Of a stretch of DNA of 38,075 nt, positions 8,152-26,097 are shown piece by piece (the first letter of the stretch is position 1; each line of letters opens with the position of its first letter). The stretch is taken from the NCBI GenBank assembly GCA_016194665.1, contig JACQBD010000136.1, forward strand, positions 1 to 38,075, read 5' to 3'. Source of the stretch: Gammaproteobacteria bacterium. Its GTDB lineage: Bacteria; Pseudomonadota; Gammaproteobacteria; Acidiferrobacterales; Sulfurifustaceae. A model generated the notes under the pieces. That model was given only the letters and a program-made list of their open reading frames with translations, was not told the DNA's origin and made no database searches. The position numbers were made by a program, and so were the translations under genes.

Positions 8152-8237
8152 CGTCATTCCCGCGCAAGCGGGAATCCATAATTTACTGATTATCGCTGTC
8201 TCAAAATGCTTGGATTCCCGCTTGCGCGGGAATGACG
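8152..8237. repeat. dRS3-like inverted repeat pair (27-bp perfect arms)
   Basis: Two 27-bp arms, 8152-8178 and 8211-8237, are perfect reverse complements separated by 32 bp. Each arm contains an internal palindrome of the form ATTCCC-N8-GGGAAT, the pattern of the neisserial dRS3 repeat, also seen dispersed in other proteobacteria. Located between soxB and the phosphoribulokinase gene, it can fold into a very stable hairpin and may act as a terminator or mRNA-stabilising element. Confidence 0.85.
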
Positions 8238-8332
8238 GATCAATTGAGATTGCCTTAATATAAGAATGTGGTATCGATTTAACCGCCTGATGTAGAATGT
8301 GCGGCTTTTAGCATTTCGAGGAGAGAGTTTCG

Positions 8333-9229: not shown

Positions 9230-9254
9230 TCCGGATTTGTCTTAGCTCACTAAC

Positions 9255-9272
9255 GCCCGCCGCGAGGCGGGC
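9255..9272 (+). terminator. GC-rich hairpin after prkB
   Basis: A perfect 7-bp stem (GCCCGCC/GGCGGGC) with a GCGA tetraloop lies 25 bp after the prkB stop and 24 bp before the next ATG. Only a loose T-rich stretch follows, so termination would be partial. Confidence 0.45.
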
Positions 9273-9296
9273 TCGCTGCTATTCTTATTTACAGTC

Positions 9297-10571
9297 ATGA
9301 AGAAGAAGCTTGCTGTCCAGGATTTACAGCTCGGCATGTATGTCTCGGAGCTCGATCGGCATTGGCTCGAGACCAGCTTTTTGTTTCAAGGTTTCGAAAT
9401 CGTTTCCGACGAACAAATCGAAGAACTCAAAAAATTTTGTAAGCACGTTTACATCGACACCGATCCCCGGCAAGACGGCGCCATGAAACCGCGGCCTGTC
9501 GTCCACGCTCCCAGGCCGGAAATCGCCAACGAAGATCGGCCTAAACGCAAAATTGAATTCAAAGAAGTCCTCGATCGATTCACGCCCGGCCATCGTCGTC
9601 CGCCGCGCTATCAAGACAGCAGCGTGCTCGAAGAGGAAATCAGTCACGCCAAGGCGATTGTCACCGAAACGCGCCAAACCGTTTACACCATCATGGATGA
9701 CGTGCGTCTCGGCCACAGCATTGACACCACCAGCGCCAAAAAAGTAGTCGCCGATATGGTGGATAGCGTCATTCGTAATCCGGATGCGCTCATGTGTCTC
9801 AACCAACTCAAACACAAGGACGAATACACCGCCCTGCATAGCTTGCGGGTGTGCGTGTTGGCCTTAGCCTTTGGCCGGCATCTGGATCTTACCAACGAAG
9901 AATTAAACTTGCTGGGCATGGGCGCTTTGTTGCACGACATCGGTAAGATGAAGGTCCCGCTGGACATTATCAACAAACCCGGGCGGCTGACGGAACAAGA
10001 ATTTGAGTTGATGAAAAGTCACGTGCCGCGCGGCGTGGAGATATTGGAACAAACCCACGGCATTCCATCACAAGCGATCGACGTCGCGCGTTTTCATCAC
10101 GAGCGCTACGCCGGCGCCGGTTACGCCATGGGCATGAAAGGCGAAAATATCGGATTGTTCGGTTCCATCGGCGCCATCGTCGATTGCTACGACGCCATCA
10201 CCTCCGATCGTTCCTATCATGTGGGCATGTCGGCGCACGATGCGCTCAAAAAAATGTATTCCTGGCGCGGCAAGGACTTTCAACCGCTGCTGGTCGAGCA
10301 ATTTATTCAATGCATGGGCATCTATCCGATCGGCAGCGTGGTCGAATTCAATAACGGCAGCATCGGCGTGGTCATATCGGTTAATCGTCTACGCCGTTTA
10401 AAACCCAAAGTGGCGCTGGTGCTCACTCCCGATAAAACACCGTTTTCACCGGTTAAAATCGTCGACCTCATGCATCAAGACGGCGCCGGCCAGGAATTGG
10501 AGATTCGCAAAGTGTTACCGCCGGGCGAACACGGTGTTATCCCCACGAAATATATTCCACTCGGCGCTTAA
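9297..10571 (+). CDS. DUF3391 + HD-GYP domain protein, cyclic-di-GMP phosphodiesterase-like
   Basis: A 424-residue protein. The N-terminal 100 or so residues match the DUF3391 region common in front of HD-GYP domains (KLAVQDLQLGMYVSELDRHW). The HD-GYP domain spans about 170-320: HSLRV at 181, HD at 213-214, then HHER at 267-270. The diagnostic GYP is GYA (275-277), and the usual D in ERxDG is Ala (RYAGAGYA). Metal ligands appear kept, so activity is possible, but the signature loop that contacts the dinucleotide and partner proteins is altered. The C-terminal 80 residues resemble the extension found in such proteins. No strong ribosome-binding site is seen. Confidence 0.88.
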   Translation: MKKKLAVQDLQLGMYVSELDRHWLETSFLFQGFEIVSDEQIEELKKFCKHVYIDTDPRQDGAMKPRPVVHAPRPEIANEDRPKRKIEFKEVLDRFTPGHRRPPRYQDSSVLEEEISHAKAIVTETRQTVYTIMDDVRLGHSIDTTSAKKVVADMVDSVIRNPDALMCLNQLKHKDEYTALHSLRVCVLALAFGRHLDLTNEELNLLGMGALLHDIGKMKVPLDIINKPGRLTEQEFELMKSHVPRGVEILEQTHGIPSQAIDVARFHHERYAGAGYAMGMKGENIGLFGSIGAIVDCYDAITSDRSYHVGMSAHDALKKMYSWRGKDFQPLLVEQFIQCMGIYPIGSVVEFNNGSIGVVISVNRLRRLKPKVALVLTPDKTPFSPVKIVDLMHQDGAGQELEIRKVLPPGEHGVIPTKYIPLGA

Positions 10572-10628: not shown

Positions 10629-13600
10629 CTACGCGACTTCTTTGGTAACGCGGCTAACTTCCTTTTCTCGCGCTGCGTCCGCTGCTTGTCCGCGCTCGAA
10701 GCGCGACAAAACTTCATAAACGCAGGGCACGACAAACAACGTCAGTAGCGTCGACACGACAACACCGCCAATAACCGCTAACGCCATGGGCACGCGCGTT
10801 TCGGCGCCGGGTCCGATGGCCAAAGCTAACGGCAAAGCCGCGGCAACGGTAGCGAATGAAGTCATCAAGATTGGACGCAACCGCACGGGGCAGGCTTCCA
10901 GCAACGCCGCGGGCACGCTCGCCGCGCCGCGCGCCCGAACCTGATTGGTGAAGTCAACCAGCAAAATGGAATTTTTCTTTACGATCCCCATCAGCAAGAT
11001 TAAACCGATGAAGCTATAAATATTAAGCGATTGACGCGAGATAAGCAGCGTCAGAAAGGCACCGGATATGCTGAAAGGCAGCGCCATCAGCACGGTAACC
11101 GGATGAATAAAACTGTTGAACTGCGAAGCCAGCACCATGTACGACACCACCAAGCCCAATACCAGCGCAAACAATAAATCGCTAAACGATTCTTTAAACG
11201 ACTGTGAGCCGCCGACAAACAGCGTGTGATAACCGCTCGGCAGCACCTGCTTGGCGATCTCTTGCGCCGTCGCTAAAGCTTTCTCCTGAGATTGACCGGT
11301 GGCGACATTGGCGAAGATTTTAATCGCGCGTTCGCGGTCGTAACGGTTGATTTGCGCCAGGCTCGGGCGCTCTTGCAGCTGAACCACTTCCGAAATCGGA
11401 ATTAACTCACCGCGATTATTACGCACCGACAAATTCTTAATCTGATCCGCGCGATCGCGATCTTGTTCTTGCAGACGCACGCGAATGTCGTAGCGATGTC
11501 CGCCGGATGAATATTGACCGGCAACCACGCCGCCCACCGTCGCATTCACTGTTTGCGAGATGGCGTTGATGCTCACGCCACGCTGTCCCGCCTTGACGCG
11601 GTCAGGAATAATCTGAATCTCCGGTTTGCCTTCCAGATAATCGCTGTCGGTGTCGCTGACCAAACCGGTGGCGTTGAGTTTATCGATGATCGTGCGCGAA
11701 TATTCGGCCAAGGTTTTCCAATCCGGTCCTTGAATGGAAAACTCCACGGGAAACCCGCGCGAAGCCGCGAATCCACGCAAGGAAAGATCTTGGATGGAAA
11801 CTTTCATATCGGGAATTTTTTTTAATTGCTTGCGCGATACATCCATCAATTCTTGCTGGCTTAATTCGTGGCCGAGCTGCGGATCGATGCCGCGTTGGCC
11901 GCGCGGTTTCATGCTGATGAACAGTATCCCCGAATTAACCACTCCGCCGCGGCCGAAACCGCCGACGGCGGAGAAGTAGCGTTGGACTTCCGGCCGGGCC
12001 GCGAAAAATTTCTCCGCCTCGAGAAATTTTGAGTTGGTAAACTCCATGGAAGAATCGACCGGCGTTTGTATGCGAATCACAAAGGTGCCCTGATCTTGGG
12101 CCGGCATCAGTTCCTTATCCAAATACTTTATCGTCATGAACGATAACGCGAAAAAAATCAAGGAACCGAAAATAACTTTCCAAGGATGCCGTAACGCCAT
12201 CTCCAACCACCGACGGTAAAACACAGCTACACGATGGAAAACAAAATCGGCGGCGCGGCCAATACGCGTGGTGCGTGCGCCGGCTTGGACGAACTGCGAT
12301 GAGCGCATCGGTGTCAACGTCAAGGCTTCGAGCAGGGACAACATTACCGCCACGGTCATGGTGATGCCGAACTGAAAAAAGAAATGGCCGATGACGCCGC
12401 GCATAAAAGCCACCGGCAAAAAGATTGCCACCACCGCCAAGGTCGCGGCTATCGCGGCAAAGGTAATTTGACGCGTTCCCTTGAGAGCCGCTTCCACCCG
12501 GCTTTCGCCCATCTCACGATGGCGCACGATATTTTCCAAAACCATGATAGCGTCGTCGACGACGATACCGATGGCGAGACTCAAGCCCAGCAGCGTGAAA
12601 GTGTTAAGCGTGAAACCGAAAAAATATAAAACGATGAAGGTGCCGATGATGGACGTCGGAATCGCCAAAATAACATTGAGCGTCGCGGTCCAACTTCCCA
12701 GAAACAGCCACACGACCAGCGAGGTAACCAGCGCCGACAAAACCAAGGTAAAATAAAATTCGTTTACCGAGTCCTCGATAAATTTTGTGGTATCGAAGTT
12801 AACCCGCAGTTTCATTCCTGCGGGAAGTTCTTGGCTGATGGCTTCCATGCGTTGCTTTACCGCATGCGCGACCATGACCGCGTTCGAACCGCGTTGTTTA
12901 CGGATGCCAATCCCCACCGCCGGATTGCCGTTGGCGCGGGAAATGCGGCGAATGTCGTCCAGACCGTCTTCGATCTGCGCTACTTGATTGAGGCGGATGC
13001 GCGTGTAAATCGGTTGACCGCCGCGCTGATTGATGACCAGATTGCCGAATTCTTGCGGCGACTTAACTTCGCCGAGCGTGCGCACGTCGTACTCTTTATT
13101 TCCGCTCGAGATTTGCCCCGCCGGCAATTCCGAGTGTTCATTTTGTATTGTGCTCAGAACATCGGTCACGGCCAGCTCGTATTTAGCGAGCTCGCGTCCC
13201 GACACCCAGACACGCAGGTTGGGATCGACATACCCGCCCAATAATATTTCGCCGACTCCGCCCAAGGTGGAAAATCTGTCTTTTAATACATCCTTGACGT
13301 ACTTCATGAGCTCGGCCGGTTTGTGACGGTCGCTACTCAAGGTCAACCACATGATCGGCTGATCTTCTGGATTGGTTTTACTGATGACAGGTGGATCGAT
13401 ATCTTTCGGCAGCAGCCGCTGCGCGGCGGAAACTTTGCTTTGCACGTCTTGCAATGCCTGAGAAATGTCGCGGCTCAGTTCGAATTCAACGGTAATGGTT
13501 GCCTGACCGAAATTCGACGTGGAAGACACATTACGCACGCCTTCCACCGTCATGACGGCGTCCTCCAAAACATCGACGACGTTAGTCTCGATGATTTCAG

Positions 13601-13766
13601 GAGCCGCGCCCGCATACGTAATGGAGACGGACACAACCGGAAAATCGACGTCGGGCAATTGGCTGATGCCCATGCGTGAGCCGGTGATCAAACCGAAAAT
13701 GATCAACGCCGCCATCAACATCCACGCAAAAACCGGACGGCGGACGGCAATCTCGGGAAGACTCAT
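10629..13766 (-). CDS. RND-family multidrug efflux transporter, HAE1 type
   Basis: A 1045-residue inner-membrane protein of full RND length. The N-terminal helix (RRPVFAWMLMAALIIFG), the proton-relay aspartates D404-D405 in TM4 (GIVVDDAIMVLENI) and the TM10 lysine in GIVKKNSILLVDF are present. The pattern is that of AcrB/MexB/MdtB proton-driven pumps exporting drugs, solvents or other amphiphiles. The start ATG overlaps the end of the upstream tolC-like gene by 4 bp (ATGA), so the two are translationally coupled. A membrane-fusion adaptor is not encoded beside them. The substrate cannot be inferred. It converges with the HD-GYP gene. Confidence 0.96.
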   Translation of the reverse strand: MSLPEIAVRRPVFAWMLMAALIIFGLITGSRMGISQLPDVDFPVVSVSITYAGAAPEIIETNVVDVLEDAVMTVEGVRNVSSTSNFGQATITVEFELSRDISQALQDVQSKVSAAQRLLPKDIDPPVISKTNPEDQPIMWLTLSSDRHKPAELMKYVKDVLKDRFSTLGGVGEILLGGYVDPNLRVWVSGRELAKYELAVTDVLSTIQNEHSELPAGQISSGNKEYDVRTLGEVKSPQEFGNLVINQRGGQPIYTRIRLNQVAQIEDGLDDIRRISRANGNPAVGIGIRKQRGSNAVMVAHAVKQRMEAISQELPAGMKLRVNFDTTKFIEDSVNEFYFTLVLSALVTSLVVWLFLGSWTATLNVILAIPTSIIGTFIVLYFFGFTLNTFTLLGLSLAIGIVVDDAIMVLENIVRHREMGESRVEAALKGTRQITFAAIAATLAVVAIFLPVAFMRGVIGHFFFQFGITMTVAVMLSLLEALTLTPMRSSQFVQAGARTTRIGRAADFVFHRVAVFYRRWLEMALRHPWKVIFGSLIFFALSFMTIKYLDKELMPAQDQGTFVIRIQTPVDSSMEFTNSKFLEAEKFFAARPEVQRYFSAVGGFGRGGVVNSGILFISMKPRGQRGIDPQLGHELSQQELMDVSRKQLKKIPDMKVSIQDLSLRGFAASRGFPVEFSIQGPDWKTLAEYSRTIIDKLNATGLVSDTDSDYLEGKPEIQIIPDRVKAGQRGVSINAISQTVNATVGGVVAGQYSSGGHRYDIRVRLQEQDRDRADQIKNLSVRNNRGELIPISEVVQLQERPSLAQINRYDRERAIKIFANVATGQSQEKALATAQEIAKQVLPSGYHTLFVGGSQSFKESFSDLLFALVLGLVVSYMVLASQFNSFIHPVTVLMALPFSISGAFLTLLISRQSLNIYSFIGLILLMGIVKKNSILLVDFTNQVRARGAASVPAALLEACPVRLRPILMTSFATVAAALPLALAIGPGAETRVPMALAVIGGVVVSTLLTLFVVPCVYEVLSRFERGQAADAAREKEVSRVTKEVA

Positions 13767-15049
13767 GGACCGGCCGCCTCCAACACGATTTTGCGTTCCA
13801 CGGTGGCGGCTTGCAGTTTTGCATAATCGAGCTTGGCGGTGTAACGCGCGCGGTCCAACGCGCGTTGATTTTCTTGGAACGCGGTCAGCGCTTGCAGCAC
13901 GTCGAGATTCGTCACCAAGCCCAGCCGGTATTCACGCCTCTGCGCGGCGTAATTATCTTTTGCCGCGGCGGTTGCCTTTTCTAAAGCCTGCAGCTGCGTC
14001 TGATCGAAAATAATATTTTGATAAAGCGAACGAATCTCCTGCTCGGCTTGACGCGTCACTTGACTGGCGCTGAGTTCCGCTTGCGTGCGCTGCGACAGCG
14101 CTTCGTTAACCTTCGATTGCAACAAGCCCCCGGAGTAAATCGGCACGGTCAACGCCAGCTGCACGTCCCAGGTGACATCTTTAAGGTTGCCGGTGCGCGC
14201 CAAATAACGGTTGGCGTTTAAATCCAAGGAAGGCCAATGCGCGCCGCGCGCCACCGACACATTTTCTTGCGCGGCGTTGACACGCGTTTGCGCCGCCTTA
14301 ATGTCAGGGCGCAAATTCAAGCGCGCCAAATATTCTTCCAGCGGCGCCAGGCTGGATGGCAAAGATTCGCTATCGTTTAACGTCGCACTGGATGTGAGTC
14401 CACTGAGAAAAGTAAACGCTTCCCGCGCATTTTGCAGCTGGCCGCGCAATTGTTCCACCTGCGCGCGTAAAGTGCCGATGGTGCTTTGCACGCTCAGCGT
14501 TTCACTGCTGCGCGAGCGGCCGATGCGCGCGCGGTCTTTCAGTTCGGACTCGCGCTCTACATTCTGCTTTATCTCTTCTTCCAAATTCTGCAAATCCTGC
14601 TGGATCGATAGAATGTTGAAAAAATTCTGCGCTACGTCCTTAAAGAGCTGAATGCGCGCATTCAGATAATCCTCATTTTGCGCGCCGAGCAATGCTTTGG
14701 TTTGCCGCAGGCCGGCAAATTCGCGAAAGCCGCGAAACAACGGTTGCGTCGCGCTTATCTTGGCCAAGGATTGACGGTTGGGCGAAATGGAAGTGCTGAA
14801 CTCACCCGCAGGCGTGGGATCCTGCCAGGTATAGGAAGCGGACGCATTGACGGTGGGAAGCAAAGTGGAATTCGCTTGGTGATAACGTTCTTCCGCTTGG
14901 CGGATCAGCTCGCTTTGTATCGCCACCACTTCACTGCGTTTTAACGCCGCGACAAAATATTCGTCCAACGTCAGCGCGTCATCGGCGACGGCGAGCTTAA
15001 TAGTTACCCAAAACGTGGCGCAGGCGAATGCTATAAATTTATACTTCAC
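13763..15049 (-). CDS. TolC-family outer-membrane efflux protein
   Basis: A 428-residue protein with a signal peptide (about residues 1-22, ending in LAVA). It has two outer-membrane-factor repeats rich in long helices, with landmarks such as ALKRSEVVAIQS near the N-terminus and a second repeat beginning at about residue 215. TolC-type trimers form the exit duct through the outer membrane and periplasm. It is the first gene of a two-gene operon with the RND pump (4-bp overlap). The usual middle component, an HlyD/AcrA adaptor, is missing. The 3' end and stop overlap the pump start. Confidence 0.93.
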   Translation of the reverse strand: MKYKFIAFACATFWVTIKLAVADDALTLDEYFVAALKRSEVVAIQSELIRQAEERYHQANSTLLPTVNASASYTWQDPTPAGEFSTSISPNRQSLAKISATQPLFRGFREFAGLRQTKALLGAQNEDYLNARIQLFKDVAQNFFNILSIQQDLQNLEEEIKQNVERESELKDRARIGRSRSSETLSVQSTIGTLRAQVEQLRGQLQNAREAFTFLSGLTSSATLNDSESLPSSLAPLEEYLARLNLRPDIKAAQTRVNAAQENVSVARGAHWPSLDLNANRYLARTGNLKDVTWDVQLALTVPIYSGGLLQSKVNEALSQRTQAELSASQVTRQAEQEIRSLYQNIIFDQTQLQALEKATAAAKDNYAAQRREYRLGLVTNLDVLQALTAFQENQRALDRARYTAKLDYAKLQAATVERKIVLEAAGP

Positions 15050-15410: not shown

Positions 15411-16340
15411 TTAATTTTCTGTATGTATGATTTTGTTGGCGGCGGCGGTGCGGGTTTCGACGCCGAGCTTGATATAAATATGTTCGAGGTGTTTATTAAC
15501 CGTACGCGGACTCATATTCAAGATGAGTCCGATATCGCGATTGGTTTTTCCTTTGGCCACCCAGAAAATAACCTCGGCTTCGCGCCGCGTTAGGTCGAAG
15601 GTCTCGGTCAACAGATCGATCGAAGGCCCCTGCAAAGTGTGTTCGTTGAACACCAGCATTTGCTGATCGCCGCTGGCGCAGGGGATGATGCGAATCGTTA
15701 AACGTTTACCGTCGCGTTGAATGACATACGGCGCGTGATTCAGCGGCAAAGATTCGCGCGATAAATTGAGTCCGTTCAACCAAGTGCGCAGTGTTTCCGG
15801 CAACAACATGGCTTCATCGATATCTTCGCCGAAATAATCCGTCAGCATGCGGCGCGCTTGTGAAGCAATAAGCGTGACGCGCGCATCGCGGTCGAAGATA
15901 ACGAAAATATCGCCGCCCAAATCGGCAGCGTTTTGAAATTGCTTGATGACGCGCGAACAATGCAAACGCGTGGCCACGCGCGCCAGCACTTCCTCGTTAC
16001 AAATCGGTTTGGTGACATAATCGATGGCGCCGACGTCAAAGCCTTTCACAATGTCCGCGGTGCCATCGAGCGCGGTCATAAAGATAATAGGAATGGTGCG
16101 CGTATCGTCATTATTTTTAAGCCGCCGGCAAGTTTCAAAGCCATCGATACCGGGCATGAGCACATCGAGCAAAATCAAATCCGGCATGATCAGCTTGAGC
16201 TGGTTGATGGCGCTGTAGCCGTCCATGGCCACCAAAACTTTATAGCCCACTTGATCGAGCGCATCCGATAGAAACGCCAGATTCGCCGGCGTGTCGTCGA
16301 CGATTAATATCGTGCCAAAATCATGCGCGTGCATATTCAT
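15411..16340 (-). CDS. Response regulator, REC + LuxR/FixJ-type HTH
   Basis: A 309-residue protein. The receiver domain occupies residues 10-125 with acidic pocket DD (15-16), phosphoacceptor D59 in DLILLDVLMPG, the T of FMTA and K of VTKP. A middle region of about 90 residues (around 140-240) resembles a small PAS-like module (GGDIFVIFDRDARV). The C-terminal LuxR helix-turn-helix reads LTRREAEVIFWVAKGKTNRD and continues to MSPRTVNKHLEHIYIKLGV. Its start overlaps the 3' end of the hybrid kinase gene by 20 bp, so they are a cognate pair. It lies in the divergon with urtABCDE-fmdAB and probably regulates that operon, which is inference from position. Confidence 0.93.
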   Translation of the reverse strand: MNMHAHDFGTILIVDDTPANLAFLSDALDQVGYKVLVAMDGYSAINQLKLIMPDLILLDVLMPGIDGFETCRRLKNNDDTRTIPIIFMTALDGTADIVKGFDVGAIDYVTKPICNEEVLARVATRLHCSRVIKQFQNAADLGGDIFVIFDRDARVTLIASQARRMLTDYFGEDIDEAMLLPETLRTWLNGLNLSRESLPLNHAPYVIQRDGKRLTIRIIPCASGDQQMLVFNEHTLQGPSIDLLTETFDLTRREAEVIFWVAKGKTNRDIGLILNMSPRTVNKHLEHIYIKLGVETRTAAANKIIHTEN

Positions 16341-17727
16341 TTTTCAATTTTGTGCCGAGCAATTCGGCTATCTCGTTTAAGCGGAATTCGTTAGCCAATT
16401 GCCGCAACAGCGTGGTGAACGGCAGGTAATGCTTATCGAGACTGGCGATTTGCTCGAGTTTTTCCAATAAGCCTTTCATGTAACCGATGCGCACCAACTT
16501 CATCAACTCGTCTAAGTGTTCGCTTGCGGGAAACAACATGCGTTGCGCTTCGCTGGTGCGTGCATCCACCGAATTGCCGGGGCTTTCATAAATCCATTCG
16601 AGCGACAACTGCGCCTTCAAGGCATCGAGCAAGTAATCGAGGCGTATCGGTTTGGAAATGAAATCGTTGCAACCCGCCAAGATACTTTTTTCATGCTCTT
16701 CATGAAAAGCATTCGCCGATACGACGATGATCACGGTGCTGCGTGTCTTGTTATCGGCACGCAGGCGCCGCGCGACTTCATGCCCGTCCATGCCGGGCAT
16801 GACCAAATCCATCAGCACCGCATCGGGCGTCAATAAATTCGCCTGCTGTAGACAACTGGCGCCGTCGACCATTTCAATTACTTGAAAGCCCAAGGGACTG
16901 AGCATGTCTACCAATAGAGCGCGATGCTCTGCCTGATCATCAACAATAAAAATCACGCGTTTGCGCCCACGATAGCCGATAACTGTATGGCGTACGCCGG
17001 ACAGCGCCGAGGCGTTGCGCAATTCCGGCAAACTTAGTTTTACCTGAAAGTTGCTGCCGACATGGACTGTGCTGGTGACCTTAAGTTCGCCTCCCATCAG
17101 TTCGCTCAACATGCGGCTGATGGTCAGACCTAAACCGGTGCCTTCCCCCTGACGTTCGATAGCGTTCGAACCGCGTTGGAACGGATGGAATATGCGCTCC
17201 AGATCCTGCGCCGGGATACCGACGCCCGTGTCCGTGATTTGGAAGCGCGCTTTTCCTTGCTCATAACCCACCGTGAAAACCACTTCGCCTTGATCGGTGA
17301 ATTTAATCGCGTTGCTTAGCAGGTTAATCAAAATTTGCCGCAAACGCTTGGCATCGACGCTGACCATCTTGGGCAACGGCGATAGCGCCTGATAATGAAA
17401 CGCGATGCGTTTATTTTCCGCTTGCAAGCGAAACATGCGTACGATCTGTTCGATAAACTCCGGAAATTGCACTTCGCCTTTCAACAATTTAATTTGTCCG
17501 GCCTCGGTGCGCGCCACGTCCAAAATATCGTTGATCAGCATTAATAAGTGCTGTCCGCTTTGTTGGATAATATGAATTGCCTGCTTGCGTCCCGTCGGAA
17601 TCGAAACGTCGTTTTGCAACAGCGGCTTGCTGCAGCTTGGCGTCGGTCTTTTGATGTTCTTCAATTTCCTGTTGCAACAGGCGCGTTTGTTTATTCGACT
17701 CTTCTTGCGCCACCAGCCGGCTTTCAT
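16321..17727 (-). pseudogene. Hybrid histidine kinase C-terminal part (HATPase + REC), severed from its sensor and lacking the H-box
   Basis: This frame encodes the end of a HisKA dimerisation helix (LLMLINDILDVARTEAGQ), then HATPase_c with N-box (LLSNAIKF), G1 (DTGVGIP) and G2 (GEGTGLGLTIS), then a receiver domain (IVDDQ..., MDLVMPGMDG, SKP) and a tail of about 90 residues. Kinase-like sequence begins only at about 17622 (LLQND). The preceding codons in this frame are out-of-frame readings of the coiled coil of the upstream ORF, so the nominal ATG at 17727 is probably not a real start. The phosphoacceptor segment (usually SHELRTPL about 14 residues before LLQ) is absent in all frames. It was once one gene with 17489-19714. 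If expressed it would lack autophosphorylation. Confidence 0.8.
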
Positions 17728-19714
17728 TGGTCAGCGTCAACCACCAAGTACCGATGCCGATCAACACCAGCAAGATCATAAAAGTTTTGGTGAGCGTGTC
17801 TTTTAAAACCAGCAAACCGTTTGGGTCCAATAAATTCGGCGTCAGGGTTTGCTGGAAATAGACGATGCCGAAGACCGCCGCGGTCAAGCCGGCGATAGCG
17901 ATGAAACGTAAAATAAAACTGCCGATGCGCGCGCGCAATTTAAACGAGTAGTGGCGCGGAACGAATACTTGCATCAGCGCGGAAAGCTGTTCGTGCAGAC
18001 TCGAACCGGTCTTACACGAATCGTGGCAACGCGCATCCAGCGTGCAACACAGCGAACAAATTGAGCCGTCGTAAGCGGGGCAATGCGCCATGTCTTCTTT
18101 TTCGAATTCGTGCTCGCAAATCACGCAACGCCTATTGGTAGCACTAAACACGCCGACCTCGCGCTGCGCAATGTAATATTTTCCTTTGGTCATGAAGGCG
18201 ATGATCGGCGCCAAAATAAACGCCAATACAAGCGCGATAAAGGGAGCGAAGGCTTGCGCCAATGGACCGAACACACCGGCATACGCGGTGATGGAAACGA
18301 TCGAGGCAACCAACATTGAGCCGACGCCGACGGGATTGACGTCATACAAATGCGCGCGCTTGAATTCGATATAAGGAGGACTGAGGCCGAGCGGTTTATT
18401 GACCACCAAATCCGCCACCAGCGCGCCGACCCAAGCGATGGCCACGTTGGAATAAATGCCCAGCACTTTTTCCAAAGCCCCGAAGATACCGAGCTCCATC
18501 AACATCACGGCGATGACGACGTTGAATACCAACCACACGACCCGCCCGGGATGACTGTGCGTGAGGCGCGAGAAAAAATTCGACCAGGCCAGTGAACCGG
18601 CGTAAGCGTTGGTCACGTTAATTTTTAATTGCGACACGACCACAAACAAAGTCGTCACCACTAAGATCACGCGCGGGTCGGAGAACACGTAACTAAATCC
18701 GACCAAATACATTTGCGTCGGTTCGCCGGCTTTATCGATGCCGATTTCATGTTGCAGCGCCAGGAAAGCCAGAAACGCGCCGCCCAAAAGTTTGGCTGCG
18801 CCCAACACGATCCAGCCGGGCCCGGACACCAACATCGCGCTCCACCACTTGACGCGATTCTCTTGCGTGCGCTCCGGTAGGAAACGCAGAAAATCGACTT
18901 GCTCGGCGATCTGCGTGATCAGCGAGAACGCCACCGTGGCCGCGGCGCCGAAAAGAAGTGGATTAAAACTAGCGCCGGACTCCGGTTTGCCGGCAAAGCT
19001 GGTGAGCTCGGAAAAAACCTGCGGATTTTTGTAAGCGATGAATATAAACGGCAACACCATCAATATCAGCCACAGCGGCTGGGTCCACAATTGCAAGCGG
19101 CTTAAGAACGTAACGCCGTGGGTGACGAAGGGAATGATCACCAACGAACTTAATATATATCCCACCGCTACCGGGATATCGAAATACAGTTCGATCACCA
19201 TCGACATGATCGCGGCTTCGAGCGCGAAGAATATAAAAGTAAACGACGCGTAGATCAGCGAGGTGATGGTCGAACCGATGTAGCCGAAGCCCGCGCCGCG
19301 CGTGAGCAGGTCCATGTCGATGTTATATTTCGATCCGTAGTAACCGATCGGCAAACTGGTGAGAAATATAATGATGCCGACAACCGTAATCGCCCAAAAC
19401 GCATTGGTGAAACCGTAGTTGATGGCGATGGAGCCACCGATGGCTTCCAGCGCCAGAAACGAAATCGCACCGAACGCGGTATTGGCCACGCGAAACTCCG
19501 ACCAGCGACGAAATGACCTTGGCGTATAGCGCAAGGCATAATCCTCGAGTGTTTCGGTGGCGACCCAGGTGTTGTAGTCCCGTCTGACTTTGATGATCCG
19601 TTGCGTGCCAGATGGCTGCATGGAATAGCTCGTCCCCGGGCGAGAAAGCGTTACCGGCATTGAATCCAACAGCACAACAAAGCAAGCTTTATGCCAGCGT
19701 TTTTCATTGCGCAA
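17489..19714 (-). CDS. NCS1-type transporter domain fused to sensor-kinase linker, truncated by frameshift/deletion
   Basis: Residues about 60-520 form a multi-helix NCS1 (nucleobase/allantoin/cation symporter) transporter domain. Landmarks include ALEAIGGSIAINYGFTNAFW, LLTRGAGFGYIGS and QLKINVTNAYAGSLAWSNFF. A cysteine-rich segment follows (CVIC, HCPAYDGSICSLCC, then RCHDSC; about 545-590), then two or three membrane helices and a coiled coil (EESNKQTRLLQQEIEEHQKT). After KLQQA, at about 17625, the frame departs from kinase sequence and runs 45 codons to a chance stop at 17489. Whole genes of this type are transporter-like sensors joined to a histidine kinase. In-frame ATGs at 19660 and 19621 are alternative starts; none has a strong ribosome-binding site. 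It is divergent from urtA. The transporter part could still act alone. Confidence 0.82.
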   Translation of the reverse strand: MRNEKRWHKACFVVLLDSMPVTLSRPGTSYSMQPSGTQRIIKVRRDYNTWVATETLEDYALRYTPRSFRRWSEFRVANTAFGAISFLALEAIGGSIAINYGFTNAFWAITVVGIIIFLTSLPIGYYGSKYNIDMDLLTRGAGFGYIGSTITSLIYASFTFIFFALEAAIMSMVIELYFDIPVAVGYILSSLVIIPFVTHGVTFLSRLQLWTQPLWLILMVLPFIFIAYKNPQVFSELTSFAGKPESGASFNPLLFGAAATVAFSLITQIAEQVDFLRFLPERTQENRVKWWSAMLVSGPGWIVLGAAKLLGGAFLAFLALQHEIGIDKAGEPTQMYLVGFSYVFSDPRVILVVTTLFVVVSQLKINVTNAYAGSLAWSNFFSRLTHSHPGRVVWLVFNVVIAVMLMELGIFGALEKVLGIYSNVAIAWVGALVADLVVNKPLGLSPPYIEFKRAHLYDVNPVGVGSMLVASIVSITAYAGVFGPLAQAFAPFIALVLAFILAPIIAFMTKGKYYIAQREVGVFSATNRRCVICEHEFEKEDMAHCPAYDGSICSLCCTLDARCHDSCKTGSSLHEQLSALMQVFVPRHYSFKLRARIGSFILRFIAIAGLTAAVFGIVYFQQTLTPNLLDPNGLLVLKDTLTKTFMILLVLIGIGTWWLTLTNESRLVAQEESNKQTRLLQQEIEEHQKTDAKLQQAAVAKRRFDSDGTQAGNSYYPTKRTALINADQRYFGRGAHRGRTN

Positions 19715-20075
19715 ACGCGGTCATGAAAAGTGGAAAATTCGCATCGTCTCAACGAGATACTGGCATTCTTGTTCGATGAGTCGTATTTAGTTTCCAGCGT
19801 CAATGCACCGGAATGAATCTTTCTTATTCTGCTTGCACCGTTTCAGCACTTAACCCAGAGAACGACTACCAAGTCGATTGCTATCCGCATCAGTCACGCG
19901 CAACAAAAAAATTTAATAATCTTTTTTTTTATTTTTTAACTTCATTTTATTTTTTCGTTGAGAAATTTTTTTCGTGCATCGTCACGCACGCAACGAATAC
20001 GTTAATTGACGTATTGGCCTGGCGTCCATCCGCGCGTCAAATGGAGACCGTCATAAATTACCCAGGAGTTAAAAC
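19715..20075. other. Divergent promoter region between the sensor gene and urtA
   Basis: A 361-bp region with a very T-rich tract (about 19917-19972) and a 20-bp palindrome at 19996-20015. It must carry the urt promoter on the plus strand and probably the sensor promoter on the minus strand. I looked for a sigma-54 -24/-12 element, plausible for nitrogen genes, and saw no convincing match. Confidence 0.5.
19996..20015. promoter_or_regulatory. 20-bp palindrome upstream of urtA, candidate regulator site
   Basis: AATACGT-TAATTG-ACGTATT is a perfect 7-bp inverted repeat with a 6-bp spacer, ending 60 bp before the urtA ATG. LuxR/FixJ-type regulators commonly bind about 20-bp dyads, and such a regulator is encoded in the divergent cluster. 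The link is inference. Confidence 0.45.
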
Positions 20076-21317
20076 ATGAGTACTGAAAGCCAGCACCGCA
20101 CCAGGCACACACGAATTTCAATTTTTATCATCGCTTCGTTTTTATGCATCGGCAGCTTGTTAACTTTTGCGCGCGTCGAGGCGGCCGGTCCACCGACTGC
20201 GCAAGTCAACACCACCGGCCTCGCCGTTACCGACACCACGGTGACCGTCGGCGACTTACATTCCGCCACCGGCACCATGGCCATCAGCGAGATTGGTTCG
20301 ATTCAAGCAGAGTTGTTGGCGATCGATCAGATCAATGCCGCGGGTGGGATACTCGGGCGTAAAATCGAAGTCATCAAAGAAGACGGCGCCAGCGATTGGC
20401 CGAACTTTGCCGAGAAGGCGCGCAAGCTATTGGTGAAGGACAAAGTGGCGGCGGTGTTTGGCTGTTGGACGTCGGCATCGCGCAAAGCGGTGTTGCCGGT
20501 TTTTGAAAAAGAAAATGGCTTGCTTTACTACCCGACCTTCTATGAAGGCTTGGAGCAATCCAAGAACGTCATCTATACCGGTCAAGAAGCCACGCAACAA
20601 ATTATTGCCGGACTTGATTGGGTCACCAAAACTAAAGGGGCCAAGACATTCTTTCTAATCGGTTCGGATTATATTTGGCCACGCACTTCGAACAAGATCG
20701 CGCGCAAACATATCGAGAACGTACTGCACGGCAAGGTCGTCGGCGAGGAATATTATCCACTCGGCACGACCAACTTCCGCTCACTTATTAATAAGGCCAA
20801 ACTCGCCAAGCCCGACGTGATTTACAGCATCGTCGTCGGTGGCAGCAATGTCTCGTGGTTCAAGCAGCTGAAGGCCGCGGATATCACGGGCGATAAGTGG
20901 ACGCTGCTGACGATCTCGACCACCGAGGATGAAGTAAAAGGCATCGGCGGTGAATCCGTGCTCAACTTTTACTCGGCGATGAAGTATTTCCAAACGCTGA
21001 AAAATCCCAATAACGAAAAGTTTGTCGCCGCCTTCAAGGCCAAGTACGGCGCTGATAGCGTTATCGGCGACGTCACGCAAGCGGCTTACCTCGGCCCGTG
21101 GTTGTGGAAAGCCGCGGTCGAAAAGGCCGGCAGTTTCGACGTCGATAAAGTCGTGGCCGCTTCGCCGGGCATCGAACTCAGCAGCGCACCGGAAGGTTAC
21201 GTGAAGGTTCACGCGAATCATCATCTATGGAGCAAGCTGCGTATCGGGCGCTGGCGTCGGCGCTGCTGTTGTGAAATTTACCGCTACCACCGTCGCAGGA
21301 GCGTTAATCATGGCTGA
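20076..21317 (+). CDS. urtA: UrtA-like periplasmic substrate-binding protein of a urea/amide ABC transporter
   Basis: A 413-residue protein with an N-terminal signal peptide (about residues 14-37). The family signatures are clear: TVTVGDLHSATGTMAISE, LVKDKVAAVFGCWTSASRKAVLPV and YYPTFYEGLEQSKNVIYTG. UrtA binds urea (or short amides in the related Fmd system) in the periplasm and delivers it to UrtBC. The start follows CCAGGAG. The last 20 or so residues, after LWSKLRIG, are an Arg/Cys-rich run unlike the usual UrtA ending, suggesting loss of the true C-terminus by a small indel or deletion. The stop overlaps the urtB start by 8 bp. Confidence 0.93.
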   Translation: MSTESQHRTRHTRISIFIIASFLCIGSLLTFARVEAAGPPTAQVNTTGLAVTDTTVTVGDLHSATGTMAISEIGSIQAELLAIDQINAAGGILGRKIEVIKEDGASDWPNFAEKARKLLVKDKVAAVFGCWTSASRKAVLPVFEKENGLLYYPTFYEGLEQSKNVIYTGQEATQQIIAGLDWVTKTKGAKTFFLIGSDYIWPRTSNKIARKHIENVLHGKVVGEEYYPLGTTNFRSLINKAKLAKPDVIYSIVVGGSNVSWFKQLKAADITGDKWTLLTISTTEDEVKGIGGESVLNFYSAMKYFQTLKNPNNEKFVAAFKAKYGADSVIGDVTQAAYLGPWLWKAAVEKAGSFDVDKVVAASPGIELSSAPEGYVKVHANHHLWSKLRIGRWRRRCCCEIYRYHRRRSVNHG

Positions 21318-22221
21318 GACTTCTACCCTGTTCACCACTTTGTTAATGCAAGGCTTCGCCGGCATGAGCCTCTTCAGCGTCTTGCTGCTGATGGCGCTGG
21401 GCCTGGCGATTATTTTCGGGCAGATGGGCGTGATCAACATGGCGCATGGCGAGTTCATGACCATCGGCGCCTACACGACTTACATCATGTCGACGTTTGC
21501 CGAAGCCCACGGTTTTATCAACCAATATTTTATTCTGGCCTTGATCGCGGCGTTTGCGATTGCCTTCGCCGCCGGTTATTTATTGGAATATCTTTTGATC
21601 CGGCGTTTATATAAACGTCCGCTCGATACGCTCCTGGCGACCTGGGGTGTCAGCCTGGTGATGCAGCAAGCTTTCCGCGAAATTTTTGGCGCGCGCGAGG
21701 TCAGCCCGGCACTTCCCGAATGGTTAACGGGTTCTTACCAACCGGCCCCTGGCATCGACCTGCCGGTGAGCGGCTTGATGGTGCTGGTGTTGATGCTGGT
21801 CGTCACCTTCGGCGTGTGGCTGATGATGTATCGCTCGCGCTGGGGCATACGCGTGCGCGCCACCACGCAGAACCGCGTGATCGCCGACGCCGTCGGCATC
21901 AACACCAAACGCGTGGACCGTATCACCTTCGCCCTGGGCTGCGGTCTGGCCGGCATCGCTGGCGCGGCGTTCACCACGATTGCTTCCACCGGCCCAACCA
22001 CCGGCAGTTTATTTATCGTCGATACCTTCTTAGTCGTGGTCTTCGGGGGCGCCGCCAGTTTATTCGGCACCATCGCCTCGGCGTTCACCATCGCGCAAGC
22101 GCAATCGGGATTGGAATTTCTCATGACCGGTTCGATGGCCAAAGTCATCACCTTGGTGAGCGTGGTGCTGATTCTAATGATGCGTCCGGAAGGTTTGTTT
22201 TCGGTCAAGGTACGTAAGTAA
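21310..22221 (+). CDS. urtB: UrtB-like urea/amide ABC transporter permease
   Basis: About 303 residues from the ATG at 21310, which has AGGAG 9 bp upstream. The frame is open further upstream to an ATG at 21271, but that lies inside urtA and lacks a ribosome-binding site. It is a branched-chain-amino-acid-type permease with about eight membrane helices and the landmarks GLAIIFGQMGVINMAHGEF near the N-terminus and RVDRITFALGCGLAGIAGAA in the coupling region. UrtB proteins are often longer because of an N-terminal extension; this one has only the permease core, as in related amide transporters. It pairs with UrtC in the inner membrane. Confidence 0.94.
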   Translation: MAETSTLFTTLLMQGFAGMSLFSVLLLMALGLAIIFGQMGVINMAHGEFMTIGAYTTYIMSTFAEAHGFINQYFILALIAAFAIAFAAGYLLEYLLIRRLYKRPLDTLLATWGVSLVMQQAFREIFGAREVSPALPEWLTGSYQPAPGIDLPVSGLMVLVLMLVVTFGVWLMMYRSRWGIRVRATTQNRVIADAVGINTKRVDRITFALGCGLAGIAGAAFTTIASTGPTTGSLFIVDTFLVVVFGGAASLFGTIASAFTIAQAQSGLEFLMTGSMAKVITLVSVVLILMMRPEGLFSVKVRK

Positions 22222-22241
22222 ATCCGAGGAGAAAAATACTC

Positions 22242-23393
22242 ATGCCAAAGAAACTACTTAGTCATTGGATAACAGCAAAGAATCGCTCTGACCTGATCAA
22301 CCTGGCTTTATTGGCTTTGTTGCTTCTGGTCGTGCTGCCATTGGCCTTGGATATTTTTCGTTTAAATCTGGTCGGCAAATATCTGACCTTCGCGTTTGTC
22401 GCGGTCGGGTTGGTGCTGTGCTGGGGCTATGGCGGCATTTTGAGTTTGGGTCAGGGAATTTTCTTCGGCCTCGGCGGTTATTGCATGGCGATGTTCTTAA
22501 AGCTCGAAGCTTCCGATCCCGTCAGCACCGCGATTCAATCCACGCCCGGCATTCCCGACTTCATGGATTGGAATCAGATCAAAGCGCTGCCGTGGTTCTG
22601 GGAACCTTTCCATAGCTTCAGTTTCACTTTAATAGCGGTGTTGATTTTGCCGACGCTGTTCGCTTATCTCATCGGCGTGGCCATGTTTAAACGTCGCGTC
22701 GGCGGTGTGTACTTCGCCATCATCACCCAGGCGATCGCACTGATCTTGACGGTGCTGATTGTCGGTCAGCAAGGTCTCACGGGCGGCATCAATGGTATTA
22801 CCGATCTCAAGACCTTGCTCGGTTGGGACATTCGCACCAACTCCGCGCGTTACATACTTTACTACATTAACGCGGCATTGCTGCTCGGCGGAATTGTTTT
22901 CAGTCGCTGGCTGCTATCGAGCAAACTCGGTTTGCTGCTGGTGGCGCTGCGCGACAAAGAAGAACGCGTACGCTTTTCCGGTTACGACGTAGCCAATCTC
23001 AAAATATTCACCTTCTGCGTGGCGGCACTGTTCTCCGCCGTCGGCGGCGCTATGTTTACGCTGCAAGTGGGATTCATGTCGCCCTCCTTTGTCGGCATCG
23101 TACCCTCGATCGAAATGGTGATATTCACCGCCGTCGGCGGACGCCTGTCCTTGATCGGCGCGGTCTACGGCGCGCTGTTAGTCAATTTTGGAAAATCCTA
23201 TTTCTCGGAAACCTTTGCGGACCTGTGGCTGTATCTGATGGGCGCCTTATTCATCGGCGTGGTGCTGTTCTTACCCAACGGCTTGGCGGGATTGTTCCGC
23301 GAGCCGCGGCAAACATGGTTGCTGATAAAGCATACCGCTCTGATGTTAGTGGCGAAGCTGCGACCCGCACGCTTGCGCCCCGAAGGCAAATAG
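22242..23393 (+). CDS. urtC: UrtC-like urea/amide ABC transporter permease
   Basis: A 383-residue LivM-type permease, full family length, with about ten hydrophobic segments. Landmarks are LCWGYGGILSLGQGIFFGLGGYCMAMFLKL, split across the first conserved loop (here about residues 65-95), GGINGITDL and the late FLPNGLAGLF. A GAGGAG site precedes the ATG, 20 bp after the urtB stop. It forms the inner-membrane channel with UrtB. The basic C-terminal tail is short. Confidence 0.95.
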   Translation: MPKKLLSHWITAKNRSDLINLALLALLLLVVLPLALDIFRLNLVGKYLTFAFVAVGLVLCWGYGGILSLGQGIFFGLGGYCMAMFLKLEASDPVSTAIQSTPGIPDFMDWNQIKALPWFWEPFHSFSFTLIAVLILPTLFAYLIGVAMFKRRVGGVYFAIITQAIALILTVLIVGQQGLTGGINGITDLKTLLGWDIRTNSARYILYYINAALLLGGIVFSRWLLSSKLGLLLVALRDKEERVRFSGYDVANLKIFTFCVAALFSAVGGAMFTLQVGFMSPSFVGIVPSIEMVIFTAVGGRLSLIGAVYGALLVNFGKSYFSETFADLWLYLMGALFIGVVLFLPNGLAGLFREPRQTWLLIKHTALMLVAKLRPARLRPEGK

Positions 23394-23409
23394 GCCAAAG
23401 GAGATCTAC

Positions 23410-24153
23410 ATGTTAAAGAAAGAAATATTGCTAGCGATCGAAGATCTCACCGTTTCCTTCGATGGTTTTCGCGCCGTCGATGCCGTCAACTTGTACGTCG
23501 ATAAAGGCGAAGTGCGCGTGATCATCGGCCCCAACGGCGCCGGTAAAACTACTTTGCTCGATTTGATTTGCGGCAAAACTCACGCCAGCTCGGGCACCAT
23601 CAAGTTCAAAAACATCGAGCTGCGGGATTTAGACGAACATCACATCGTGCGCGCCGGCGTGGGACGCAAGTTTCAAACCCCCTCGATTTACGAAGATCTC
23701 ACCGTCTACCAGAATCTGGAAGTCTCGTTTCCGCGCGGACGTAGCGCCTTCGGCAGTCTGTTTTTTAAACGCACGCAAGATGTCGTGGATCGCGTGCAAG
23801 AAATCGCCGCCGAAATTTTATTAACCGAGCAACTGCATCAGCTCGCTGGCCTACTCAGCCACGGACAAAAACAGTGGCTCGAGATCGGCATGCTGCTGAT
23901 CCAAAACCCGGAACTGTTAATGCTCGATGAACCGGTCGCGGGCATGAGCGTGCGCGAACGCCAACAAACCGCGGAACTGCTCAAACGCATCAGCGCCAAC
24001 CGCTCGGTGATCGTTATAGAACATGACATGGAATTCGTGCGCGCCATCGCGCACCGCGTGACCGTGCTGCATCAAGGACGGGTGCTGATGGAAGGAAGTA
24101 TGGACGCGGTGCAGGCCGACGAACGCGTCATCGAAGCTTATCTGGGACATTGA
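23410..24153 (+). CDS. urtD: UrtD-like ABC transporter ATPase
   Basis: A 247-residue LivG-type ATPase. Walker A is GPNGAGKTT at 40-48, the Q-loop lies near 89, the signature LSHGQ is at 149-153, Walker B (ELLMLDEP) at 168-175 and the H-loop His at about 205. The start follows AAAGGAG. It energises urea or amide import with UrtE. It lies 16 bp after urtC and 12 bp before urtE. All catalytic motifs are intact. Confidence 0.96.
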   Translation: MLKKEILLAIEDLTVSFDGFRAVDAVNLYVDKGEVRVIIGPNGAGKTTLLDLICGKTHASSGTIKFKNIELRDLDEHHIVRAGVGRKFQTPSIYEDLTVYQNLEVSFPRGRSAFGSLFFKRTQDVVDRVQEIAAEILLTEQLHQLAGLLSHGQKQWLEIGMLLIQNPELLMLDEPVAGMSVRERQQTAELLKRISANRSVIVIEHDMEFVRAIAHRVTVLHQGRVLMEGSMDAVQADERVIEAYLGH

Positions 24154-24165
24154 AGGAGAACCGCG

Positions 24166-24855
24166 ATGCTAGAAGTGCAAAATTTAAGCGTGAGCTACGG
24201 CCAAAGTAGCGTCATCGAATCCTTACAGCTGTCGATCGAAAAAAATGAAACGCTGGCGATTCTCGGGCGCAACGGCATGGGCAAATCCACACTGTTGCGG
24301 GCCTTGATCGGCATCCTGCCGGCGCGCACCGGCAAGATCAGCTTGAATGGAATGGAGCTGACCAAAAACGAAAGTCATGAGCGCGTGGCGCGTGGCTTGG
24401 CGTACGTGCCGCAAGGTCGCGGAATTTTTCCGAGCCTGACGGTGGAAGAAAATATTAAAACCGGGTTGGAAAACGCTAAAGACCATCGCGTGCCCGATGA
24501 AATCTATTCGCTGTTTCCGGTGCTCTACGAGATGCGTCGGCGCAAGGGCGGCAATCTTTCCGGCGGTCAGCAGCAGCAATTGGCCATCAGTCGCGCTTTG
24601 GTCAGTAATCCATCGGTACTGCTGTTGGATGAACCGACCGAAGGCATTCAGCCTTCCATTATTAAAGATCTGGCCAAGGCGCTGAATGAAATTAAACGTC
24701 TGCGCAAGATCGCCATCGTCGTATCTGAACAAGTGTTGAGCTTCGCGCTGGATGTCGCCGACCGCATTTTAATTATCGAAAAAGGCCGCATCGTTCATGA
24801 AAACCTGCGCGCCAACGTCGATGCCAAAAAGTTAAGCCAATATTTATCCGTCTAA
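24166..24855 (+). CDS. urtE: UrtE-like ABC transporter ATPase
   Basis: A 229-residue LivF-type ATPase. Walker A is GRNGMGKST at 34-42, the signature LSGGQ is at 131-135 and Walker B (VLLLDEP) begins at 151. The phrases YVPQGRGIFPSLTVEEN and DEPTEGIQPSII are characteristic of UrtE. In place of the usual H-loop His the sequence reads VVSEQVLSFAL, as commonly seen in UrtE proteins. GAAGGAGA precedes the ATG. It is the last transporter gene, 15 bp before fmdA. Confidence 0.96.
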   Translation: MLEVQNLSVSYGQSSVIESLQLSIEKNETLAILGRNGMGKSTLLRALIGILPARTGKISLNGMELTKNESHERVARGLAYVPQGRGIFPSLTVEENIKTGLENAKDHRVPDEIYSLFPVLYEMRRRKGGNLSGGQQQQLAISRALVSNPSVLLLDEPTEGIQPSIIKDLAKALNEIKRLRKIAIVVSEQVLSFALDVADRILIIEKGRIVHENLRANVDAKKLSQYLSV

Positions 24856-24870: not shown

Positions 24871-26097
24871 ATGCTTGAAACATTGATCAAAGTCGACGTG
24901 AATAAGGCGCCAGCGGATCAAGCCGGCATGATTCATAACCGCTGGCATCCGGATATCCCGATGGTCGCGACCGTGAAACCCGGCGCCGAGTTTCGTATCG
25001 AATGCATCGACTGGACCGGCGGCCAGATACAAAACGACAACTCGGCCACCGATATTCTTAAAGTCGATCTCACCAAGGTGCATTACCTCAGCGGTCCCAT
25101 CGGCGTCGACGGCGCCGAACCCGGCGATTTATTAGTCGTGGATATTCTCGATATCGGCACGCTCGCCGATTCCGATTGGGGGTTCACCGGAATTTTCGCC
25201 AAAAGCAACGGCGGCGGCTTCCTCACTGAACATTACCCCGAGGCGCGCAAAGCTTGCTGGGATTTTCACGGCATCTTCGCCACGTCGCGGCACATTCCCA
25301 ACGTGCAATTCGCCGGCATCATGCATCCCGGTTTAATTGGATGTCTGCCATCGGCCGAATTGCTGGCGAAATGGAATCAACGCGAACAAGCATTGGTGGC
25401 GACCGATCCTAACCGTGTGCCACCGCTGGCGGCCCTACCCTACGCCGATACTGCACTCATGGGTCGCATGAAGCCGGAACAAGCCAAAGAAGCCGCCAAG
25501 GTCGCGGCGCGCACCGTACCGCCGCGCGAGCACGGCGGCAATTGCGACATCAAAAATTTATCGCGCGGTTCGAAAGTGTATTTTCCGGTCTACGTCAAAG
25601 GCGGCGGCTTGTCGATGGGCGATATTCATTTCTCGCAAGGCGACGGCGAAATTACTTTTTGCGGCGCCATCGAGATGGCCGGCTGGCTGGAACTGCGCGT
25701 GTCGCTGATCAAGGACGGTGTAAAAAAATACGGCATCACCAATCCCATCTTCAAGCCCAGCCCCTTGGAACCGCGTTACTCGGATTATTTAATCTTCGAA
25801 GGAATTTCCGTGGACGAATCGGGCAAGCAACATTACTTGGACGCGCACGTTGCTTATCGGCGCGCCTGTTTAAACGCCATCGAATATTTAAAGAAATTCG
25901 GTTACAGCGGCGAACAAGCCTACGCCATCCTCGGCACCGCGCCGGTCGAAGGCCATATCAGCGGCATCGTCGATATTCCCAATGCGTGCGCGACGTTGTG
26001 GGTACCGACCGAAATTTTTGATTTTAATATTCGCCCGAATGAATCGGGACCGGTGAAGTACCTCACTGGAAAAACCGACCTGGCCACCGTGACATGA
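24871..26097 (+). CDS. fmdA: Formamidase / acetamidase (FmdA/AmdA family)
   Basis: A 408-residue cytoplasmic amidohydrolase of the FmdA_AmdA family, full length. Features include NRWHPDIPMVATVKPG near the N-terminus, ADSDWGFTG, PNVQFAGIMHPGLIGCLPS, the HGGNCDIKNL segment, and HFSQGDGEITFCGAIEM. Members hydrolyse formamide or short aliphatic amides to the acid and ammonia. AGGAGA precedes the ATG, 15 bp after urtE. Its position at the end of the transporter operon suggests that the imported substrate includes formamide or other short amides besides, or instead of, urea; no urease gene is in the window. Methylophilus methylotrophus has a comparable amide-urea transport and fmdAB arrangement. 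Confidence 0.95.
   Translation: MLETLIKVDVNKAPADQAGMIHNRWHPDIPMVATVKPGAEFRIECIDWTGGQIQNDNSATDILKVDLTKVHYLSGPIGVDGAEPGDLLVVDILDIGTLADSDWGFTGIFAKSNGGGFLTEHYPEARKACWDFHGIFATSRHIPNVQFAGIMHPGLIGCLPSAELLAKWNQREQALVATDPNRVPPLAALPYADTALMGRMKPEQAKEAAKVAARTVPPREHGGNCDIKNLSRGSKVYFPVYVKGGGLSMGDIHFSQGDGEITFCGAIEMAGWLELRVSLIKDGVKKYGITNPIFKPSPLEPRYSDYLIFEGISVDESGKQHYLDAHVAYRRACLNAIEYLKKFGYSGEQAYAILGTAPVEGHISGIVDIPNACATLWVPTEIFDFNIRPNESGPVKYLTGKTDLATVT

Follow-up and report, generated by a model that had tools for sequence, protein, structure and literature searches.

Fusions of a transporter to a histidine kinase are few, and the element that couples the two parts is poorly understood. In the SLC5/STAC kinases CbrA, CrbS and RpuS a LeuT-fold transporter is joined to the kinase through a cytoplasmic element; STAC itself was reportedly defined in a 2015 paper. 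A transporter of another family has been reused as a nitrogen-source sensor in Ks-Amt5, where an ammonium transporter is joined to a histidine kinase (PMC5764959). Here we describe a putative sensor of this general design encoded in a 38,075-nucleotide stretch of DNA (hereafter the window) from a gammaproteobacterium of the family Sulfurifustaceae (GenBank assembly GCA_016194665.1, contig JACQBD010000136.1), together with its relatives. An initial annotation of this DNA had likened the protein to CbrA in principle while assigning it a different transporter family, a comparison that is supported here, the closest family by fold being NCS1. Among the matches listed in our search of the open literature no description of an NCS1–kinase fusion was found. 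To judge from sequence comparison, this sensor, which combines a complete transporter with a Cys-rich tail, appears to induce genes that serve to take up and split urea-like amides. The transporter, Cys tail included, exists as a separate protein as well as in the fusion, in some cases with the two forms next to each other, and the step from permease to sensor is therefore testable by comparison.

In our view the intact proteins of this family are likely to be transceptor kinases for urea or short amides that induce uptake and hydrolysis of these compounds. In the mechanism that we infer, which extends to the ligand, the zinc, the direction of regulation and the route of the phosphorelay, the divergent NCS1-fold module would bind, and perhaps carry, either urea or a short amide, formamide for example, while a cytoplasmic tail with eight cysteines, probably stabilised by zinc, would pack beneath the transporter and relay its conformation through a two-helix hairpin and a coiled coil to HisKA. 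The signal would then pass from the histidine to the receiver domain and, probably by way of a separate Hpt protein, to a LuxR-type regulator, which would bind TACGTCA-N2-TGACGTA and control a divergent operon of urtABCDE with fmdA or amiF. The family would have originated in one joining or separation event between the kinase and a stand-alone amide/urea permease that already possessed the Cys tail.

That the sensor region is an NCS1-type transporter, as the initial annotation had it, is borne out by the fold. When an AlphaFold model (built from 29 sequences, mean pLDDT 77) was compared with known structures using VIA-align, the transporter ranked closest to CodB (Z 33.0, root mean square deviation (rmsd) 3.5, 398 residues aligned, 17% identity) and Mhp1 (Z 28.2, 27.4 and 24.9; best rmsd 4.1, 428 residues aligned, 14% identity), with the next family after NCS1 at Z 23.0 and the SLC5-type row 5nva at Z 21.6. 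The domain therefore presents the NCS1 version of the LeuT fold; an SLC5 origin, which the shared LeuT fold alone does not exclude, ranks below NCS1. Unlike CodB and Mhp1, the transporter has no Pfam match, either for its open reading frame (ORF) at E 0.001 or for 29 homologues at E 0.01, and neither phmmer nor profile searches of PDB sequences matched it; the NCBIfam cytosine permease model matches at E 4.1e-6 but with 25.8 bits, below its cutoff of 326. Arg216 and Tyr285 of CodB, which persist unchanged in more diverse sets of sequences (PMC9379551), have R277 and Y371 as their counterparts; both are invariant in all 48 rows of an alignment with E. coli CodB. In contrast, this one low-identity alignment places K364 and I365 opposite the Na2 hydroxyls T278 and T279 of CodB (48/48 rows), and Leu265 opposite its stacking Phe204 (46 of 48). 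The Na2 side chains are not universal in NCS1, the fungal FurE being a proton symporter, and Leu265 in place of Phe204 would be consistent with a small ligand that is not aromatic; a carrier of such a ligand without coupling to sodium, or a sensor of it, would fit. The transporter is a divergent NCS1 clade, having the fold of that family and, in this alignment, not the Na2 side chains of CodB.

The motifs CVIC, HCPAYDGSICSLCC and RCHDSC comprise the Cys residues 530–567 of the ORF (window 18127–18014), following the transporter core (residues 50–512) and preceding two helices and a coiled coil (residues 591–690). None of the eight cysteines varies across the 29 rows of an alignment (A1) whose homologues were aligned without motif selection, confirming the conserved cluster that the initial annotation had placed between the transporter and the last membrane helices; homologues lacking a conserved module, which it had named as a refutation, were looked for, and the module proved conserved. 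A further alignment of 46 rows (A2) was chosen by a regular expression for these cysteines, so its invariance adds nothing beyond A1. A profile of the module searched against 369 genomes of the window's class gave 20 matches at E<1e-20, every one in this transporter family, besides a degenerate family copy in genome G333 (E 3e-6, four cysteines left) and five more at E 8.8e-4 or worse that we take as noise. Stand-alone transporters, among those counted, stop 6–19 residues past the module, while the two extra helices and the coiled coil are present in fused homologues and absent from stand-alone ones. Because stand-alone forms carry the module and its strong matches are confined to this family, it is part of the transporter and not the fusion joint, and the fusion-specific linker suggested initially is rejected.

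Eight invariant cysteines including a CC pair would also suit a redox or iron–sulfur sensor, in which the transporter would be mainly a membrane anchor and the kinase would read metal or redox state instead of substrate. We regard such a sensor as very improbable: although the module folded alone (AlphaFold, pLDDT 74) returns RING/PHD/FYVE-type structures as its top Foldseek rows, weakly (E≥0.47), its conservation is the same on transporters that stand alone and have no kinase, the NCS1 core residues are conserved as strongly as the cysteines, and the context is one of amide and urea metabolism. Against PDB sequences the module profile finds C2H2 fingers and rubredoxins, mostly around the first CxxC; zinc in the module is a guess.

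A tree of 49 rows (10 stand-alone, 38 fused and one cut) changes label between the two forms only once, with support of 100/97, and none of 500 label shuffles gave so low a number. Both forms occur in Cyanobacteriota and in Pseudomonadota (with which the window's class is counted), and Bacillota in the tree have the stand-alone form only; the two stand at one locus in G027, G036, G042, G317 and Methylovirgula. Residue 89 in the first helix is D in 10/10 stand-alone and L, I or C in 38/38 fused proteins, while the adjacent residue 90 is F/Q in the former and E in the latter. Ks-Amt5 lost transport on becoming a sensor (PMC5764959), and by analogy the same may apply here. We suggest, tentatively and with some doubt, that permeases for urea and short amides, forming a family that has gone unrecognised and possessing an intrinsic eight-Cys gate, gave rise once to the transceptor kinase; the helix 1 substitutions (D89 to L/I/C, F/Q90 to E) would have tuned or abolished transport in the kinase lineage, and the gate would have turned into a signal relay. 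Members of this permease family would be found in Cyanobacteriota, Pseudomonadota and Bacillota, and probably also in Actinomycetota.

The transporter ORF of the window has 24 relatives at 46–64% identity in named genomes, far above chance. The loci of these relatives were found through short conserved peptides, with Nitrospirillum and Okeania over-represented, and the locus counts omit L023 (cut), L027 and L028 (near-copies of L066) and L100 (without transporter). Where a hybrid kinase and a LuxR regulator occur together, urt, formamidase or urease genes adjoin in 24 of 29 loci, five of these being closely related Nitrospirillum, which supports the association with urt/fmd genes proposed from the window alone; L022 has weak urt-like matches only, and no such genes were found in the fetched stretches of L050, L056, L057 and L059. 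Kiloniellaceae-type kinases (L013, L016, L019) have fmdA in 3/3 loci and share a neighbouring regulator, OmpR-like in L016. Near the stand-alone forms, fmdA, amiE/amiF or urease genes occur in 11 of 13 loci (the exceptions being L067, a 149-residue piece, and L098): these forms adjoin fmdA both in cyanobacterial genomes and in others from the order and class of the window, lie between amiE and amiF in Aneurinibacillus and sit within a urease operon in G333. At L064 (9088–10710) a stand-alone transporter has urease accessory genes on one side and a nickel transporter on the other. Of the 369 genomes surveyed in the class, 17 other than the window's own contain the transporter at E≤1e-30, and urt/fmdA or urease genes are near it in 11 of them: urt and/or fmdA in eight (G193, G303, G317, G411, G226, G126, G065, G104) and urease genes in three (G162, G333, G094), with none seen in the fetched stretch of the other six (G088, G183, G294, G252, G192 and G108, the last on a 5.7-kb contig). 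FmdA is found in 19 genomes besides the window's own; five have both proteins, against 0.9 expected (17×19/368), and in all five the two lie within 10 kb of each other.

Of 12 divergent intergenic stretches, delimited by hand and with approximate gene edges for some loci, 7 share eight-base words of the palindrome TACGTCA-N2-TGACGTA, the maximum in 100 single-nucleotide shuffles being 4. Across 54 loci (1.0 Mb) the palindrome is present in 12/29 loci with a hybrid kinase and LuxR regulator at up to one mismatch and in 17/29 at up to two, and in 0/21 loci without the LuxR regulator; shuffled loci gave no site at up to one mismatch and 4.6 at exactly two. Seven of the loci at up to two mismatches (L017, L051, L056, L058, L060, L066, L101) lie outside the first 12 stretches, the rest being training data. 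One extra two-mismatch site occurs in each of L056 and L005, a second palindrome stands 105 bp upstream of a detached fmdA in L054 (G226), and L020 has one upstream of amiF. Genome-wide, a site at up to one mismatch exists in 7 of 9 genomes, and every such site is at the sensor locus in G193, G303, G226, G108, G104 and G317. Two of 20 relatives searched have one chance site each, neither being known to carry the sensor system; G027, another of the 20, carries the system without the palindrome. From this distribution the palindrome is read as the operator of the LuxR regulator.

Several observations weigh against transceptor kinases for urea and short amides acting through this operator. The palindrome is absent or weak (at least three mismatches) in 12/29 loci and was not found genome-wide at up to one mismatch in G411 or G036, while the window's own genome has, besides the site upstream of urtA, a second on contig C166. 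L064 keeps four of the eight cysteines. The Urt homologues of Nitrospirillum, G411, G065 and G104 are 36–56% identical to those of the window and could carry another solute. Finally, no urt or fmd genes were found near eight cyanobacterial-type kinases (one of them in G088, of the window's class) or near the pair L061/L062, of which L061 has PAS domains; neighbourhoods unrelated to nitrogen compounds, which the initial annotation had held would refute it, thus apply to these loci, a part of the family only. The setting of the cyanobacterial-type kinases would suit an NCS1 module that senses another nitrogenous compound, such as a nucleobase, hydantoin, allantoin or a guanidine derivative, as a general organic-nitrogen cue, with the urt and formamidase genes merely co-regulated. 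Characterised NCS1 members do carry nucleobases and hydantoins (PMC9379551), one carries metformin (PMC13390362) and a Streptomyces homologue is annotated as an allantoin permease; however, the stand-alone relatives keep company with amide and urea genes as described above, no purine or hydantoin gene appeared among their annotated neighbours, and the stacking Phe204 of CodB aligns with Leu265, so that we judge a cue of this kind unlikely.

Turning to the window copy of the proposed transceptor kinase, the fusion of transporter, Cys module and kinase described in the initial annotation holds for intact relatives, which carry it in full, but is broken in the window itself. The transporter ORF (17489–19714, minus strand) has a 741-residue reading from a TTG start, homologues pointing to a start near 19621, and ends after some 45 out-of-frame residues at a stop, while the HATPase and receiver domains sit in a separate frame (ORF 16321–17727; Pfam and three-frame translation). 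Alignment with the DNA of the relative L048 reveals a gap of about 100 nt at the junction, which takes in the SHELR-P phospho-acceptor box, and the Pfam match to HisKA is limited to profile positions 33–66. The window copy thus does not combine a HisKA bearing its phospho-acceptor histidine with HATPase and receiver domains as a hybrid histidine kinase does, whereas L005, L020 and L048 have all three in one frame. The His box motif is present in 41 of the 44 fused ORFs that are uncut by a contig end, the misses being the window, L061 and L062, although L061 retains a HisKA match in Pfam. A programmed frameshift is rejected because the phospho-acceptor box is itself absent; with box and frame lost, the window copy as assembled cannot signal. 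We give an even chance to an assembly error in an intact gene, in which case the organism would have a working sensor; this concerns the window copy alone and is compatible with the function proposed for the family. The draft genome, 82% complete, is in 197 contigs, and two adjacent genes each show a local loss, with short repeated strings flanking both junctions, and FmdA and UrtB–E score above their model cutoffs; against this, the same-genus genomes are without the locus and so offer no independent copy for comparison. UrtA of the window scores 490.1 bits with TIGR03407 (cutoff 492.75) over profile positions 1–341 of 361, and at 21240–21310 the UrtA C-terminus and the urtA–urtB gap are shorter than in L048. 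The parts of the locus are listed in Table 1.

Table 1. Features of the sensor locus and the divergent urea/amide genes, in window coordinates.
Feature	Position	Strand	Basis
NCS1-fold transporter domain, 12-helix core	18179..19621	-	AlphaFold model, VIA-align, alignment of 29 homologues
8-Cys module CxxC-x11-CP-x6-CSLCC-x5-CxxxC	18014..18127	-	29-row alignment A1 and 369-genome profile search
Two extra transmembrane helices and coiled coil toward kinase	17626..17944	-	Model helices 591–624, 631–690
Lesion at transporter/kinase junction, frame change	17600..17640	-	DNA alignment with L048, three-frame translation, HisKA match
Hybrid kinase remainder in other frame: HisKA tail, HATPase_c, receiver domain	16321..17598	-	Pfam
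LuxR-type response regulator, receiver and GerE helix-turn-helix	15411..16340	-	Pfam; kept beside fused homologues
16-bp palindrome TACGTTAATTGACGTA, candidate operator, 62 bp upstream of urtA	19998..20013	.	Shared motif in divergent regions, genome-wide scan
urtA, urea ABC transporter binding protein, altered C-terminus	20076..21317	+	NCBIfam TIGR03407, L048 alignment
urtBCDE	21271..24855	+	NCBIfam TIGR03409, 03408, 03411, 03410, above cutoff
fmdA, formamidase	24871..26097	+	NCBIfam NF045496, 778.8 bits (cutoff 500)

Window positions 1229–10567 and 32304–37902 match two stretches that lie 1.9 kb apart in the one-contig genome G004 of the same genus, and G001, G006 and G007, also of this genus, agree with the collinearity for the parts that they contain. 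Because both flanks are collinear in this way, the intervening 10568–32303 (about 21.7 kb, including the sensor locus) is extra in this genome, and a contaminant contig is rejected on the same ground. The insert ends at a tRNA-Lys gene (32305–32380), and a 45-bp, 96% copy of the 3′ end of this gene lies at 30744–30788. The transporter–kinase was not found in the eight same-genus genomes searched, and for this reason the sensor locus was probably gained by this genome. Also inside the insert are genes for circularly permuted ATP-grasp, Alpha-E, proteasome-like and transglutaminase proteins directly behind fmdA (26618–30688), and an RND efflux pump with an outer membrane factor, adjoining two-component genes (10629–15049).

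Matches to the transporter part occur in 525 of 72,556 plasmid records, 342 from Klebsiella and 78 from Sinorhizobium, and six matches, chosen by hand, were opened. On an IncFIB/IncFII plasmid of K. pneumoniae the order is amiF-urtEDCBA followed by the divergent kinase and its regulator. This 10.4-kb stretch is covered to at least 80% in 341 plasmid records, almost all Klebsiella, and 372 of the 375 records with any match are at least 99% identical; the kinase–regulator part is matched in 6 of 5,426 E. coli genomes. The sensor goes under generic database names such as ATP-binding protein, hybrid sensor kinase, response regulator and ArcB. In papers on ST307/CG307 (PMC5506382, PMC13060141) a urea transport system is listed with the components UrtA, UrtB, UrtC and AmiF; in its gene set of urt and amiF, as in L095, it is like the present one. 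In the available portions of these papers the divergent kinase–regulator pair goes unmentioned, ‘histidine kinase’ not being found in the text of PMC13060141, nor ‘sensor’ or ‘regulator’ in that of PMC5506382. Both a sensor and an operator are put forward here for urea/amide operons, the plasmid-borne urea transport locus of Klebsiella included.

The fmdCABDEF genes of Methylophilus methylotrophus resemble the urea/amide operons described here in that a formamidase is encoded together with an importer of urea and short amides, and no membrane sensor is named for them in the available part of the description (PMC10781810). Some of our loci add a porin with a match to ExtI, together with FmdB, as in fmdCABDEF; ExtI is about 19% identical to FmdC (PMC5877670). 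An ExtI-like porin, perhaps FmdC-like, is seen at L058 (8897–10156) and its relatives, in five loci of the set. AmsS of Acinetobacter, a hybrid kinase with 14 helices and a LuxR regulator, looks alike, but the words ‘urea’ and ‘SLC5’ are absent from the available portion of its description (PMC10112286). Ks-Amt5 shares with the present sensor the reuse of a transporter for sensing a nitrogen source, but belongs to another transporter family, and neither a Cys module nor an adjacent uptake operon is described in the accessible part of the paper (PMC5764959). There is a further parallel with CbrA, which also has a lysine at the Na2 region, K196 (PMC13022988), where K364 is found here. In contrast to CbrA and the other SLC5/STAC kinases, the transporter is closest by fold to NCS1 and not to SLC5, the 8-Cys module and the two-helix hairpin occupy the place of STAC, and a LuxR regulator adjoins, together with urea/amide genes. 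The sensor would work like CbrA, but it is not assigned to the CbrA family.

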